Assembly: GCA_003158175.1 (NCBI GenBank)
Contig: PMHJ01000037.1
Location: 713-64,712 of the forward strand
DNA: 64,000 nt
Direction of reading: 5' to 3'
From: Candidatus Cybelea septentrionalis
Lineage (GTDB): Bacteria; Vulcanimicrobiota; Vulcanimicrobiia; Vulcanimicrobiales; Vulcanimicrobiaceae
Part shown: piece by piece, positions 38,227-51,140 of the stretch
How positions within the stretch are numbered: the stretch's first letter is position 1
Layout: the number at the start of each line of letters is the position of its first letter
Program-made: the position numbers and the translations under genes
Notes under the pieces: model-generated
What the model was told of the DNA's origin: nothing
The model's input: only the letters and a program-made list of their open reading frames with translations
Databases searched by the model: none

Positions 38227-38826
38227 GTGCGTCTCTCTCGGATCGTCCTCGCCAGCCAATCTCCCCGACGGCTGGAACTGCTGCGTTCACTCGGTTTCAT
38301 CGTCGATGTGGCGGCAAGCGGCTACGCGGAAATGCCGCTGCCCGGCGTTTCGCCAGCCGATCTCGCCTCGTATCACGCGAGGGAAAAACTTCGCGCAACG
38401 CTCGCGACGCATGGCCGGCCGTTCGACGTCCCGGTTCTCGCCGCCGATACCGTAGTAGATCTCGACGGCGCGCCGCTGGGCAAACCGTCCGATTTGGCGG
38501 ACGCCGCGCGAATGCTGGAATCGCTGTCGGGCCGGGAACACGTCGTCCACACGGCGTTTGCGCTGGCGGTCCCGAGCAGCGCGACTTGGACCGAAGAGCG
38601 CTCGTCCACCCGCGTGAGCTTTTATCCGCTGGAGGCCGGCGAGATCGCCGAATACCTGGCTACCGGCGAGTCGCTGGACAAAGCGGGTGCCTACGGCATC
38701 CAAGGGCGCGCCGCGTCGTTGGTGAAGGCGATTGAGGGCGACTTCTACACCGTCATGGGTTTGCCGCTCGGCCGCCTCGTGCGAACGCTGCGGGTGTTGG
38801 GATTTACGCTTCCAATCGCGAAATAG
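38227..38826 (+). CDS. maf: Maf-family nucleoside triphosphate pyrophosphatase
   Basis: 199 residues, GTG start. Maf signatures are present: RIVLASQSPRRLELLRSLGF at the N-terminus, PVLAADTVVDLDGAPLGKP with the catalytic Asp, and YLATGESLDKAGAYGIQGRA. The enzyme hydrolyses non-canonical nucleotides (dTTP/UTP or modified pyrimidines) and in several bacteria is linked to the mre genes. Here mreC follows within 36 bases. Confidence 0.95.
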   Translation: MRLSRIVLASQSPRRLELLRSLGFIVDVAASGYAEMPLPGVSPADLASYHAREKLRATLATHGRPFDVPVLAADTVVDLDGAPLGKPSDLADAARMLESLSGREHVVHTAFALAVPSSATWTEERSSTRVSFYPLEAGEIAEYLATGESLDKAGAYGIQGRAASLVKAIEGDFYTVMGLPLGRLVRTLRVLGFTLPIAK

Positions 38827-38861
38827 CCGTCGCCACAACTTGGTCGGAGAGCGGAGCGGTC

Positions 38862-39665
38862 ATCTTCACGTATAGAGACGAACGAAAACTTTTCGCGCTG
38901 ATTAGCATCATCATCGTCGCGGGGCTGCTCGCCCTGCTTCAGATCGGAGCGCAGCGCGCGGGCGCCGCTAGCCCGATCTCGACGGTCGCGAACTCAGTCT
39001 TTGGCGTTGCCGAAAGCGCGATCGCGGCGGCCGTCGGGGGTGTTCGCGGTTTAGCTGCGGCAATCGTCGCGCTGCCTGGCCTCGAAACCGATGTGACGCG
39101 TCTGCGGGCGCGCAACGAGCGCCTGATCGAAGAGAACGACCGGCTTCACGAGCTCGCTTCGACATATGCCGCACAAAGTGGGCTTCGCTCAATCGTGGAC
39201 CTCTATCGCGGCGTCGAGGCGCGTGTGATCGGGTTTCCGCCCGAGAACGAGTCTCGCGCCGTGACGATCGACAAGGGCTCCCTGGCCGGAGTTCGCGCCG
39301 ATGAAGGGGTGCTCGCGGCCGGCGGCGTGGTTGGCCGTGTCGTTGCAGTGGGTCCGTTGTCGAGTACGGTCGTGCTCGTTACCGATTACACCAGCCGCAT
39401 CCCCGCGGTAGTGCGACGGGGCCGCTGGTGGGGAATTGCGCGCGGAAATCTCACGAGCGTCGTCGTCGACTACATCGAGCAGGACGCGCCGTTGCGTGTC
39501 GGCGACGTCGTGGTGACGGGCGAAGGTCGATCGTTCCATTCCGGCCTTCCAATCGGCACCGTGATCCAAATCGAGCGTGGTAATGCGACGCTCTCTCAAA
39601 CCGTCGTGTTGCGGCCTTCCATCGATCTCGGTGCCCTCGATCGCGTTGTCGTCGTTCCGAAGTAA
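38862..39665 (+). CDS. mreC: Cell-shape protein MreC, apparent AUC start
   Basis: 267 residues if started at the ATC at 38862. No ATG, GTG or TTG exists in frame ahead of the N-terminal helix; the first one, GTG 39093, would delete the membrane span and part of the coiled coil. Upstream of 38862 there is GGAG with a 5-base spacer. The protein reads IFTYRDERKLFALISIIIVA (signal anchor), a coiled coil (TRLRARNERLIEENDRLHEL) and the MreC beta-barrel domain (VIGFPPENESRAVTIDKGSL, VGDVVVTGEGRSFHSGLPIG). MreC scaffolds the elongasome with MreD and PBP2. Identity is firm; the start codon is inference. Confidence 0.9.
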   Translation: MFTYRDERKLFALISIIIVAGLLALLQIGAQRAGAASPISTVANSVFGVAESAIAAAVGGVRGLAAAIVALPGLETDVTRLRARNERLIEENDRLHELASTYAAQSGLRSIVDLYRGVEARVIGFPPENESRAVTIDKGSLAGVRADEGVLAAGGVVGRVVAVGPLSSTVVLVTDYTSRIPAVVRRGRWWGIARGNLTSVVVDYIEQDAPLRVGDVVVTGEGRSFHSGLPIGTVIQIERGNATLSQTVVLRPSIDLGALDRVVVVPK

Positions 39666-40173
39666 GCCTCACGTAGCGCCGTTTGCCGGACCGCGGTGGT
39701 ACGTGGCGGCAGCGTGGCTTTCGTTAGCAATCATCGCTCAAGCCACGCTCGTGCACGCTCTTGCAATTCGCAGCGTCGTGCCGAGCTTCGTCTTGGTGGT
39801 CGTCGTCTGGTACGCAATCCGGGTGGACGCGCGCCGCGCAGCAGTCTACGGTCTGGTCGCGGGGCTCTGCGAAGACGCGCTCTCGGCCGGAACGGGAGCT
39901 GCGTGGATGATTTCGACATGCAGCAGCGCCATCGTCGCGAGTATGCTGTCGCGGGGTTTTTTTTCCGATTCCATTCCGCTAGTCAGCGCGATCACCGTGC
40001 TCGTCACGCTGTTGCGCGCACTGATTTTTTGGGCCGCGATGGCATTGGGCGGATATCCCCCGGGCCTTGGGTCGATGCATCTGCGTGAAGCGCTCTTTGA
40101 GTCTTTGCTCAACGGCGCGGTCGTCGTCGCCGCCATGCTAACCGTTCGCCGTTTCGACGCACTGCGGCGATGA
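39646..40173 (+). CDS. mreD: Cell-shape membrane protein MreD
   Basis: About 175 residues from the TTG at 39646; GTG codons further upstream in mreC are alternatives. It overlaps the mreC end by 20 bases. Five or six hydrophobic helices fill the sequence (WYVAAAWLSLAIIAQATLVH, SVVPSFVLVVVVWYAIR), with the MreD-typical GLVAGLCEDALSAGTGAAWM. MreD is an integral membrane elongasome component. The stop overlaps the mrdA start (ATGA). Confidence 0.9.
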   Translation: MSSFRSKPHVAPFAGPRWYVAAAWLSLAIIAQATLVHALAIRSVVPSFVLVVVVWYAIRVDARRAAVYGLVAGLCEDALSAGTGAAWMISTCSSAIVASMLSRGFFSDSIPLVSAITVLVTLLRALIFWAAMALGGYPPGLGSMHLREALFESLLNGAVVVAAMLTVRRFDALRR

Positions 40174-42026
40174 TGCAGCGGCGCGACTTACGGGTAACGG
40201 CGTGGCGTCTTCCAGCGTGGCGACTGACGGCCTTCGCGGCGACCGTCGTGATCGCGCTCGCCGCCCTGACAGCTCGACTCGTCCAAATACAGCTCTTTGA
40301 GGGCGGTTCGTATCGCGCGCAGGCCCTGGCAAACCAGATCCGTCTCATTCCCGTCGCCGCGCCGCGCGGAATAATTGTCGATCGCCGCGGCACCATTCTC
40401 GCGCGCAGCCGCCCTTCGTTCGTCGTTGCGCTGATTCCATCGGAGGTTAACGACCTCGAGAGCGAGCTTACGTCACTCGCGGGAATCATCCATGTGAGTA
40501 AGGCGTCGCTCACGCGCCGGTTGTTGCATCACCGGGGTATTGATTACCCGAGCTTTGCGGCGGTCGCAGCGAACGAACCCTACGGCCCGGTGGTGCTTGC
40601 AACAAATTTGCCGGTACCGACCGTGGCCCGCCTATCGGAGGTTCTCACGGACCTTCCCGGCGTCGACCTCGAAGTTCAGCCAATTCGCGATTATCCGGAA
40701 GGCGCGCTGGGTTCGCATCTGATCGGTTACGTCGGAGCGATTACTCAGGACGAGTTCGAGCGCCGCAAGTTCGAAGGATACTCGCCCAACGACGTGATCG
40801 GCAAGGACGGCCTGGAGATCACCTACGATGACTATCTGCGCGGCAGGCCCGGTGGCGAACGTGTCGTCGTCGACGCGACGGGCGCCGTCGTTTCGAACGT
40901 TAGGCTCGGAGCGAGACCCGCGGTGCCGGGCGACACGCTGATCACCAACGTCGATTGGAGGCTTCAGCGCATCGTCGAAGTGGCACTTGCGGATGGGTTG
41001 CGCGCGGCCGGGCGGGGGCACAGGCTTTCCGGCGCGGTCGTGGCGGAGGATCCTTGGACCGGCGGGATTCTCGCACTTGCAAGCTATCCAAACTACAATC
41101 CAAACGACTTCGCCGGCGATCGCTGGAAGCGGGTAAGCTTCGACCTGACCGATTCGTCGCAGCCACTTTTCGATCGCGCGATCGCCGCCGCAACTCCGAC
41201 CGGTTCCACGTTCAAAATGGTCACGGGATCCGCAGCGCTGACCGAAGGCGTCGTGAAGGTCGATCAGATCATCGACGACACCGGGGGCTGGAACTGCGGC
41301 GGTTACTACGCGCGCGACATTGCCGCGGGAGGCCTCGGAGATACGACCTTCGTTCCGGCGCTTGCGGCGTCGAGCGACGGTTATTTCTTTCGTTTGGCGT
41401 GGTGGCTGGGTAACGCCCGTTTACGTAAATATGCGCTGGCTTTCGGGCTCGACGCGAAGAGCGGGATCGACCTTCCCGGCGAGAACGAAGGGAACTGGCC
41501 GACGAACGCTTGGGAGCTCCGTGCCTTCGGGGTTCCGATGGAGCCCAGCGAAGCTTGTTTCTTGGGTATTGGGCAAGGCGCGATGCAAGCCACGCCGTTG
41601 CAGATGGTCAACATCGCCTCGGCGGTTATTAATGGAGGCACCCTCTACCGGCCGCAACTCGTTCGCGAGATACGCGATCCAAACGGCGGGCTCATCATTC
41701 GGTTCGCTCCGCGAGTCATTCGCCACGTTCCCGTCACCCCGTCGGCTCTCGGCGCGGTGCGCGAGGGAATGGCGAAGGTAACCGACCCAGGTGGAACTGC
41801 GTACGGGTTGGCGATCGACGGTTTACCGTATTCCGGTAAGACCGGGACGGTCGAAACCGCCGGAGGGAACGGTCCCAACACGACGTGGTTCGTCGCGTGG
41901 GCGCCCACGACTCACCCGCAATTCGCGCTGGCCGTCTTTGTCGATCGCAGCGGGGGCTACGGCGCCACGGTCGCGGCGCCGATCGCGCGTGAGATCTTGG
42001 TGAAGTACTTCAACAAGAAACCGTAA
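40170..42026 (+). CDS. mrdA: Penicillin-binding protein 2 (elongasome transpeptidase)
   Basis: 618 residues, ATG-ATG start. Signal anchor near 17-38, pedestal dimer domain (GIIVDRRGTILARS, YPEGALGSHLIGYVG), then the transpeptidase: active-site S346-T-F-K, SSDGYFF as the SxD-type second motif, and K557-T-G-T. This class B PBP crosslinks peptidoglycan during cell elongation together with RodA. mreB and rodA are not in the window. The gene ends convergently 10 bases from the HEAT-like gene. Confidence 0.96.
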   Translation: MMQRRDLRVTAWRLPAWRLTAFAATVVIALAALTARLVQIQLFEGGSYRAQALANQIRLIPVAAPRGIIVDRRGTILARSRPSFVVALIPSEVNDLESELTSLAGIIHVSKASLTRRLLHHRGIDYPSFAAVAANEPYGPVVLATNLPVPTVARLSEVLTDLPGVDLEVQPIRDYPEGALGSHLIGYVGAITQDEFERRKFEGYSPNDVIGKDGLEITYDDYLRGRPGGERVVVDATGAVVSNVRLGARPAVPGDTLITNVDWRLQRIVEVALADGLRAAGRGHRLSGAVVAEDPWTGGILALASYPNYNPNDFAGDRWKRVSFDLTDSSQPLFDRAIAAATPTGSTFKMVTGSAALTEGVVKVDQIIDDTGGWNCGGYYARDIAAGGLGDTTFVPALAASSDGYFFRLAWWLGNARLRKYALAFGLDAKSGIDLPGENEGNWPTNAWELRAFGVPMEPSEACFLGIGQGAMQATPLQMVNIASAVINGGTLYRPQLVREIRDPNGGLIIRFAPRVIRHVPVTPSALGAVREGMAKVTDPGGTAYGLAIDGLPYSGKTGTVETAGGNGPNTTWFVAWAPTTHPQFALAVFVDRSGGYGATVAAPIAREILVKYFNKKP

Positions 42027-49509: not shown

Positions 49510-50370
49510 CTATCGTTCTTTTTGCAAGAGAAGGTCGCCCAGGCGTAACAGTTCGTCGTCGTTTTGGAAGCGGAACTCGACCCGGCCCCCGCGCCGGTAG
49601 CGGACGAGCGCGACGTGAGTCCCAAAGCGCTCGCGCAGCCGTCTTTCGAAATCGTGCTCGTCAGATGTTAGTGCGCGCGAGGTGGAGGCTTTGGGATGCG
49701 CGCCGACTCCCGCGGCAGCCAACCGCTCCAGTGCGCGAACCGTTAAGCCTTGGCTCGCGGCGCGCTCGGCCAGCGGAACGCGCGCGGACTCGGGCGCGGC
49801 GAGCAGCGCTCGCGCGTGACCTGCGGAGAGCCGAGCGTCGGCGAGCATCGCCTTGATCGAATCGGGCAGTGCGAGTAGGCGCAGCGTATTGGCGATCGCG
49901 GGCCGGCTCTTGCCGAGGCGGCGTGCAACCTCTTCTTGCGTCAGGCCGTGTTCGTCGATGAGATATTGAAAGCCGGCGGCTTCTTCGAGTGCATTCAAAT
50001 CCTCGCGCTGCAGGTTCTCGACGATCGCGAACTCGAGCGTTTGACGGTCGTCGCTGGATCGAACGATGGCCGGAATCGACGGTCGCTGCAAGGCGGCACT
50101 CGCGCGCCAACGCCGTTCACCCGCAATCAGCTCGTATCCATTGCCGCGCCGCCGCACGATAACCGGCACCAAGATACCGTATTCGGCAATGGAGGCCTTC
50201 AGCTCGTCGAGCGCGGCGCCGTCGAAGGTCTTTCGAGGCTGAAACGGATTGGGTGTGATCTCGGTCAACGGAATCTCTCGCACGATGTCTTGAGAGCTCG
50301 AAATCGGCACGACGCTCTCGCCAAGCAACGCCGCCAGTCCTCTGCCCAAACCTCGCTTCGGCGCGCTCAT
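49510..50370 (-). CDS. parB: Chromosome partitioning protein ParB
   Basis: 286 residues. The N-terminal CTPase/ParB domain has ITPNPFQPRKTFD, GYELIAGERRWRASAAL and the ENLQREDLNALEEA motif. A central HTH (TQEEVARRLGKSRPAIANTL) binds parS, and a C-terminal dimer domain ends the chain. ParB loads at parS, slides and recruits ParA and SMC. It follows parA with a 4-base overlap; a parS-like site lies 2.5 kb away at 52897. Confidence 0.96.
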   Translation of the reverse strand: MSAPKRGLGRGLAALLGESVVPISSSQDIVREIPLTEITPNPFQPRKTFDGAALDELKASIAEYGILVPVIVRRRGNGYELIAGERRWRASAALQRPSIPAIVRSSDDRQTLEFAIVENLQREDLNALEEAAGFQYLIDEHGLTQEEVARRLGKSRPAIANTLRLLALPDSIKAMLADARLSAGHARALLAAPESARVPLAERAASQGLTVRALERLAAAGVGAHPKASTSRALTSDEHDFERRLRERFGTHVALVRYRRGGRVEFRFQNDDELLRLGDLLLQKER

Positions 50371-51140
50371 GCCGAGGCTCGGGCCGGTTCGAGCATCTCG
50401 CGCGCGACGGCGAGATAGGCTTGCGCTCCGCGGCTCTTGAGATCGAAGAGCAGCACCGGCTTGCCATACGAGGGCGCCTCGGAGATCCGCACGTTCCGAG
50501 GAATCTGCGTTTTAAAAATTTGCTCCGGAAAGTACTTCTCGAGTTCGCGAATCACTTCGAGTGCCAAACGCGTACGGCCGTCGAACATCGTGACCAGAAC
50601 GCCGCTGACATGGAGCGTCGGATTGAGTGCGTCGCGCACGCGCCAAATCACGCTGGTTAGCTGCGCCAGTCCCTCCAGAGCGTAGAACTCCGCCTGCACG
50701 GGAATCAGACAGTCATCCGCGGCGGTCAGCGCATTGATCGTCAATAAGCCCAGCGATGGCGGTGAATCGATCAGAACGAAATCGTACGCGCTCGCGACCG
50801 GCGCGAGCGCTTGACGAAGCCGCGTCTCTCGCGAAAGCGCGGCCACGAGTTCGACGTCCGCGCCCGCGAGATTGATCGTTGCGGGAGCGAGCATCAGATT
50901 TTCGATCTCGGTTCGCACGATGACGCTCTCGAGCGGAGTCTCTTGCATGAGCGCGTGATAGATGTCGTGCGACAACCGTCCTTTGTCGATGCCTAAGCCG
51001 GTCGTCGTGTTTCCCTGTGGATCGCTGTCGATGACGAGCACGCGACTGCCGAGCATCGCCAATGCCGCGCCGAGATTAACGGCCGTCGTGCTTTTCCCAA
51101 CGCCGCCTTTTTGGTTGACCAGCGCAATGATGCGACCCAG
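50367..51140 (-). CDS. parA: Chromosome partitioning ATPase ParA, apparent CUG start
   Basis: 257 residues if started at CTG 51140. The conserved N-terminus GRIIALVNQKGGVGKSTTAV, with the deviant Walker A K-GG-V-G-KST, would be lost from the first canonical start (TTG 51062). No ATG, GTG or TTG precedes it in frame, and GGAGAG lies seven bases ahead of the CTG. Further motifs: VLVIDSDPQGNTTTGLG, LIDSPPSLGLL and VTMFDGRTRLA. ParA drives ParB-parS segregation on the nucleoid. It lies just after the CCA enzyme gene. Confidence 0.92.
   Translation of the reverse strand: MGRIIALVNQKGGVGKSTTAVNLGAALAMLGSRVLVIDSDPQGNTTTGLGIDKGRLSHDIYHALMQETPLESVIVRTEIENLMLAPATINLAGADVELVAALSRETRLRQALAPVASAYDFVLIDSPPSLGLLTINALTAADDCLIPVQAEFYALEGLAQLTSVIWRVRDALNPTLHVSGVLVTMFDGRTRLALEVIRELEKYFPEQIFKTQIPRNVRISEAPSYGKPVLLFDLKSRGAQAYLAVAREMLEPARASA

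Follow-up and report, generated by a model that had tools for sequence, protein, structure and literature searches.

The cell-shape gene mreC of a Candidatus Eremiobacterota genome and its apparent AUC start codon, conserved across the class Eremiobacteriia

Where does translation of mreC begin when its reading frame offers no ATG, GTG or TTG ahead of the conserved protein? The question arises in a stretch of 64,000 nucleotides (hereafter the window) from a genome of the Candidatus Eremiobacterota, a lineage of soil bacteria. The window is part of the 371,851-bp contig C23 of the 3.19-Mb genome G000, and most of its relatives that bear a name are likewise metagenome assemblies of Candidatus Eremiobacterota. 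Its genes are ordered obgE, a nucleotidyltransferase gene that we take to be nadD-like, a small ORF, maf (38227..38826, + strand; PF02545, E 2e-52), mreC (38862..39665, +), mreD (39646..40173, +; PF04093, E 2.5e-7) and mrdA, encoding PBP2 (40170..42026, +; PF00905 and PF03717). Both the barrel core (PF04085, E 3e-34) and the gene order mreC-mreD-PBP2 identify the MreC family, solved MreC relatives were found, and an N-terminal membrane anchor was recognised in the translation by eye. The open mreC frame begins at 38736, and its first canonical codon is the GTG at 39093, 77 codons past 38862, which bears out the observation in the initial annotation that no ATG, GTG or TTG precedes the anchor. 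That annotation had placed the start at the AUC at 38862..38864 (+), from which the gene runs for 267 codons to a TAA and which opens the conserved MreC sequence IFTYRDERK. The Shine-Dalgarno (SD) motif GGAG that it had reported five bases ahead of the ATC is indeed found at 38853..38856 (+), with a 5-nt spacer and a duplex energy with the anti-SD of -9.0 kcal/mol. Further down the operon, mreD starts at a TTG that overlaps the end of mreC, 17 nt ahead of its stop, as seen in most relatives among the matches listed, and mrdA starts at an ATG; start strengths in the operon are therefore graded, from AUC in mreC through TTG in mreD to ATG in the PBP2 gene.

We searched all 117 genomes of the class and matched mreC in 114 of them (G039, G045 and G117 gave no match), and in all 114 genes we read the codon homologous to 38862, hereafter codon 0. 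It is ATC in 72, ATT in 18 and another codon in 24, and within the window's genus it is ATC or ATT in 18/18 genomes, the window's own included. Since the same codon is found again in 90/114 mreC genes from separate assemblies, a sequencing error at the ATC, the alternative that had been raised together with the AUC start, is excluded. As to an ATG or GTG elsewhere in the frame of related genomes, 37 of the 114 genes have neither these nor a TTG between the upstream stop and codon 0. Among the 24 exceptions, five carry a canonical codon at the identical position (ATG in L136, GTG in L026 and L089, TTG in L120 and L124), L025 has a GTG at +1, and the remaining 18 have an ATG or GTG at +2. In these 18 genomes codon 0 no longer encodes Ile, and in two of them it is a stop (TAG in L108, TGA in L110); that it was lost, even to a stop codon, where a start arose at +2 argues that it is constrained only while it serves as the start. 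Other candidate starts were rejected: beginning at GTG 39093 would lose conserved codons, and the near codons GTC at -1 and ACG at +2 are not conserved.

The 46 genomes with ATH at codon 0 that have maf upstream and lack the GTG motif described below (group A) locate the beginning of the protein precisely. Conservation of the coding sequence starts exactly at codon 0, which encodes Ile in 46/46, and the sequence upstream is unconserved: the entropy of the encoded residues ranges over 2.97-3.77 bits from codon -12 to codon -1 and drops to 0 at codons 0 and +1. The closest upstream in-frame stops lie 2 codons from codon 0 in L007 and L008, 3 in L011 and 4 in six genomes, and in 37/46 the frame is free of canonical codons from its upstream stop to codon 0. 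One is present in the other nine (L005, L006, L009, L018, L020, L024, L029, L088 and L090), near the start in two of them, as a TTG at -6 in L005 and as a GTG at -2, inside AGGTG, in L018. In the downstream direction, the first canonical codon lies 10 to 77 codons in, and gene callers limited to ATG, GTG and TTG would trim MreC by this much in the 46 genomes unless an upstream codon were chosen. The SD duplex with the anti-SD averages -7.87 over the 46 genomes, a mean reached by 0/10,000 resamples, compared with -3.99 at control positions; L016 has no recognisable SD (-1.3). ATC and ATT occur at codon 0 in a ratio (34:12) resembling that at Ile codons inside these genes (653:173, with 23 ATA), and the ratio by itself is therefore no evidence for initiation. 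Taken together, the conservation of the codon, the SD and the absence of a usable canonical start support the proposal that mreC starts at AUC.

We consider it very probable that mreC is translated from the AUC at 38862. The ordinary fMet-tRNA would initiate weakly there, hold MreC at a low level and leave its synthesis sensitive to IF3. The CAU anticodon of the initiator would pair with AUC or AUU with a mismatch at the third position, leading to weak initiation of a protein that would begin with Met; the weak start would keep the supply of MreC low in relation to MreB and PBP2; and since IF3 discriminates against codons of this kind, abundant IF3 would be expected to lower MreC output, as the AUA start of infC would provide for IF3 itself. 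We infer weak initiation, a low dose of MreC and an IF3-mediated repression from the precedents of infC, sigR and S. aureus reporters. By analogy with sigR, ccpN, cvfC1 and pcnB, it is reasonable to suppose that the AUC start limits MreC dosage, and the sensitivity of mreC to IF3 would follow from the identity of the codon and the analogy with infC and sigR. That an AUC or AUU start is conserved across the class suggests deliberately low production of MreC by the cell.

Binns and Masters are said to have found in 2002 that the AUU start of E. coli pcnB, a chromosomal gene, limits its synthesis, a parallel to what is proposed for mreC in a different gene and phylum. Other precedents are described in two papers. 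infC, which is autoregulated, starts with ATT in E. coli and with ATC in Streptomyces, and the GTC start of Streptomyces sigR is repressed by IF3, a canonical start leading to overproduction (PMC5472188). In S. aureus, infC starts with AUA, cvfC1 with AUU and ccpN with AUA, and reporters for cvfC1, ccpN and citZ yielded ~10% of the output of AUG in poor medium, ccpN reaching up to 30% in rich medium (PMC13009471). Like mreC, infC has a long-conserved AUH start with an SD, and within the class infC itself uses ATA, ATC or ATT; infC controls its own synthesis, however, while mreC serves cell shape and plays no part in initiation. The likeness to sigR is that, of two coupled genes, one carries a non-canonical start, which for sigR was shown to set the stoichiometry with the neighbour; the codon, however, is GTC and not AUC or AUU, the gene and phylum are others, and the sigR start was tested experimentally. 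The starts of ccpN (AUA) and cvfC1 (AUU) resemble that of mreC in being conserved AUH codons preceded by an extended SD, but they belong to other genes, in Firmicutes, and were measured at ~10-30% of AUG. In a literature search for a non-canonical mreC start, judged by titles and the openings of abstracts, none was found among the matches listed. Among the systems cited, conserved AUH starts are described for few bacterial genes, which encode an initiation factor, regulators or enzymes. With no usable canonical start, an SD at normal spacing (L016 excepted) and a codon conserved throughout most of the class, mreC is a further, unusually deeply conserved case of the known non-canonical starts, of the kind that IF3 would discriminate against. 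A class-wide AUH start on a morphogenesis gene suggests that the weakness of a start codon can be a selected setting of elongasome dosage, and the lineage provides a natural series at one position (AUC, AUU, AUG, GUG and UUG) for asking why weak starts persist. One member of the class, Vulcanimicrobium alpinum, has been cultured (PMC9758169).

A different genomic context is found in the 44 genomes of group B (L127-L171 except L136), which belong to the window's own family in part and otherwise to two further families. Here, the gene upstream is mreB (identified by PF06723 in L129 only and in the others by the shared tail), which runs 37-49 nt into mreC in a different frame, and both the mreC start and its SD lie inside the mreB 3' end; one overlapping stretch codes for the end of MreB and also provides the start of mreC. 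The mreB Arg codon that supplies the SD is AGG in 44/44, as compared with 11/822 Arg codons counted in more upstream parts of the same mreB genes. The A of ATH comes from a CAA codon of mreB in 26 genomes, from CGA in 17 and from AAA in one, CGA making up 43/822 of those Arg codons, although the genomes are related and the counts are thus not independent. In a tree of MreC built from codon +3 onward (quick IQ-TREE search, 118 rows), all 70 maf-type genomes fall into a single clade (SH-aLRT 99) that sits within the mreB-type genomes. maf lies upstream of mreC in 69/70 of them, the other being L019, where the contig ends, and it is also found within the sequenced flank of 22/44 mreB-type genomes; G000 has its best mreB match ~60 kb away. 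The presence of maf in both types of genome fits an ancestral order maf-mreB-mreC from which mreB was later lost. The AUH start probably arose inside the mreB/mreC overlap: the mreC start of the ancestor would have lain in the 3' end of mreB, and in one lineage mreB would have left the cluster and the AUH start would have been retained though free to change.

A possible, if clearly less probable, reading is that the AUH start plays no part in regulation, having been frozen by the overlap with mreB and persisting in the maf-type clade through slow reversion. Within the overlap the codon is indeed constrained by mreB, and canonical starts did arise: the maf-type clade shows at least 7 switches between these and ATH. 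Yet in the 46 ATH genomes of that clade the third base has gone from C to T or back on at least 8 occasions, and an ATG occupies codon 0 in just 1/70 maf-type genomes; furthermore, a strong SD stands amid divergent upstream sequence. We lean towards selection for low MreC rather than a relic of the mreB overlap.

The group B genomes also harbour an in-frame GTG at -3, in 44/44, and a GTA, GTG or GTT at -2, which brings up the question of whether the mreB-overlap lineages start mreC at this GTG, with ATC as an ordinary Ile codon, in which case the non-canonical start would have come later, as a lesser event confined to the maf-type clade. We regard this as unlikely. Anti-SD pairing over positions -16..-5 averages -11.15 kcal/mol before ATH but -3.00 before GTG and is stronger for ATH in 44/44 genomes, and the bases of the GTG belong to the SD itself (GAGGTG/AGGTGG) and are shared with a Trp codon of mreB. 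The maf-type clade, without mreB upstream, has no such GTG and yet has ATH in 46 genomes. ATH thus appears to be the start in group B also, which we hold with less confidence than in group A, and the choice between the two codons makes no difference to the window's own clade.

Synthesis of MreC without initiation, by frameshifting or stop readthrough from maf, is highly improbable: in 43 of the 45 group A genomes measured, maf stops 2-45 nt short of mreC, and in 24/69 maf-type genomes the two genes share a frame, but in the other 45/69 their frames differ, no upstream sequence is conserved, an SD precedes ATH, and in group B the upstream gene is mreB, again in another frame. The translation machinery itself looks ordinary. 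An initiator tRNA with a CAU anticodon was found in G000, and a search with an initiator-tRNA pattern gave matches in 96/117 genomes, six of which include one match with another base in place of the C (G009, where it is the only match, G026, G029, G058, G096 and G106); at these six non-CAU loci ARAGORN detected no tRNA gene, while it did detect the CAU control from G010. A 16S 3' end with an intact anti-SD, CCTCC, was recovered from 11/117 genomes, one of them of the window's genus; the 16S sought in G000 was not found, and the anti-SD was therefore taken from these 11 relatives. An altered initiator tRNA or genetic code that reads AUC as a normal start, to which the several G000 genes with non-canonical starts might point, is thus scarcely credible given the CAU initiator tRNA-Met, the six variant loci without a tRNA gene, the standard anti-SD and the canonical starts of most scanned genes.

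Another gene of the same class, infC, also begins with AUH. Across 49 loci its start codon is ATA in 43, ATC in two and ATT in two, the ATT in loci of another family; in L271 and L275 a GCA or AGC is aligned there, directly preceded by ATA or ATT. No canonical codon is found in frame at or before the start codon in 23/47 ATH loci. In G000, infC (L177; C43:125850-126353, -) has its ATA start after GGAG. As ATA is the rarest internal Ile codon in group A mreC (23/849), its fixation in infC is start-specific. We tentatively raise the idea, doubtful as it is, that the AUH starts of the Eremiobacteriia form a small IF3-sensitive regulon of IF3 (AUA), mreC (AUC/AUU) and an MGDG-synthase-like glycosyltransferase (AUU); if so, its members would rise and fall together, and both the elongation of the cell wall and the making of envelope lipids would be coupled to the capacity for translation initiation.

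Finally, we scanned 714 kb of G000 (468 called genes; C23 and parts or all of C1-C20) with a codon model for coding stretches ahead of the first canonical start. On C23 (256 genes, 371,851 bp), mreC has by far the largest gain, 18.4, followed by 6.6, which goes beyond chance, and on the other contigs (212 genes, 342,543 bp) the largest gain is 12.1. Altogether, 13 genes were flagged as having no canonical start ahead of the coding stretch, with mreC first. None of the 11 genes in a further 20 kb of C43 was flagged, infC included, because a stray ATG lies upstream in its frame, and the scan therefore misses such cases. Two of the other flagged genes were compared with their counterparts in relatives. 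A parA gene in the window (50370-51140, -) has no ATG, GTG or TTG before its P-loop and probably starts at the CTG at 51140, after GGAGAG; among 10 loci of the same genus, that codon is CTG in four and ATG or GTG in the other six. The MGDG-synthase-like glycosyltransferase gene (L237:17372-18508, contig C11) probably starts at an ATT after AGGAG, with ATT in seven of nine loci of the genus and GTG and ATG in the other two. On the same contig, a GT2-family glycosyltransferase gene (L237:4283-5029) lacks a canonical start before its conserved N-terminus, where the sequence reads CTA ATC ACT, and a TENA/PqqC-family gene on C10 (L236:9089-9778, -) has none before its conserved region and a stop ~10 codons upstream. 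Lastly, a tRNA-Sec (anticodon TCA) is predicted on C23 at L219:10016-10109, and G000 may therefore make selenoproteins.
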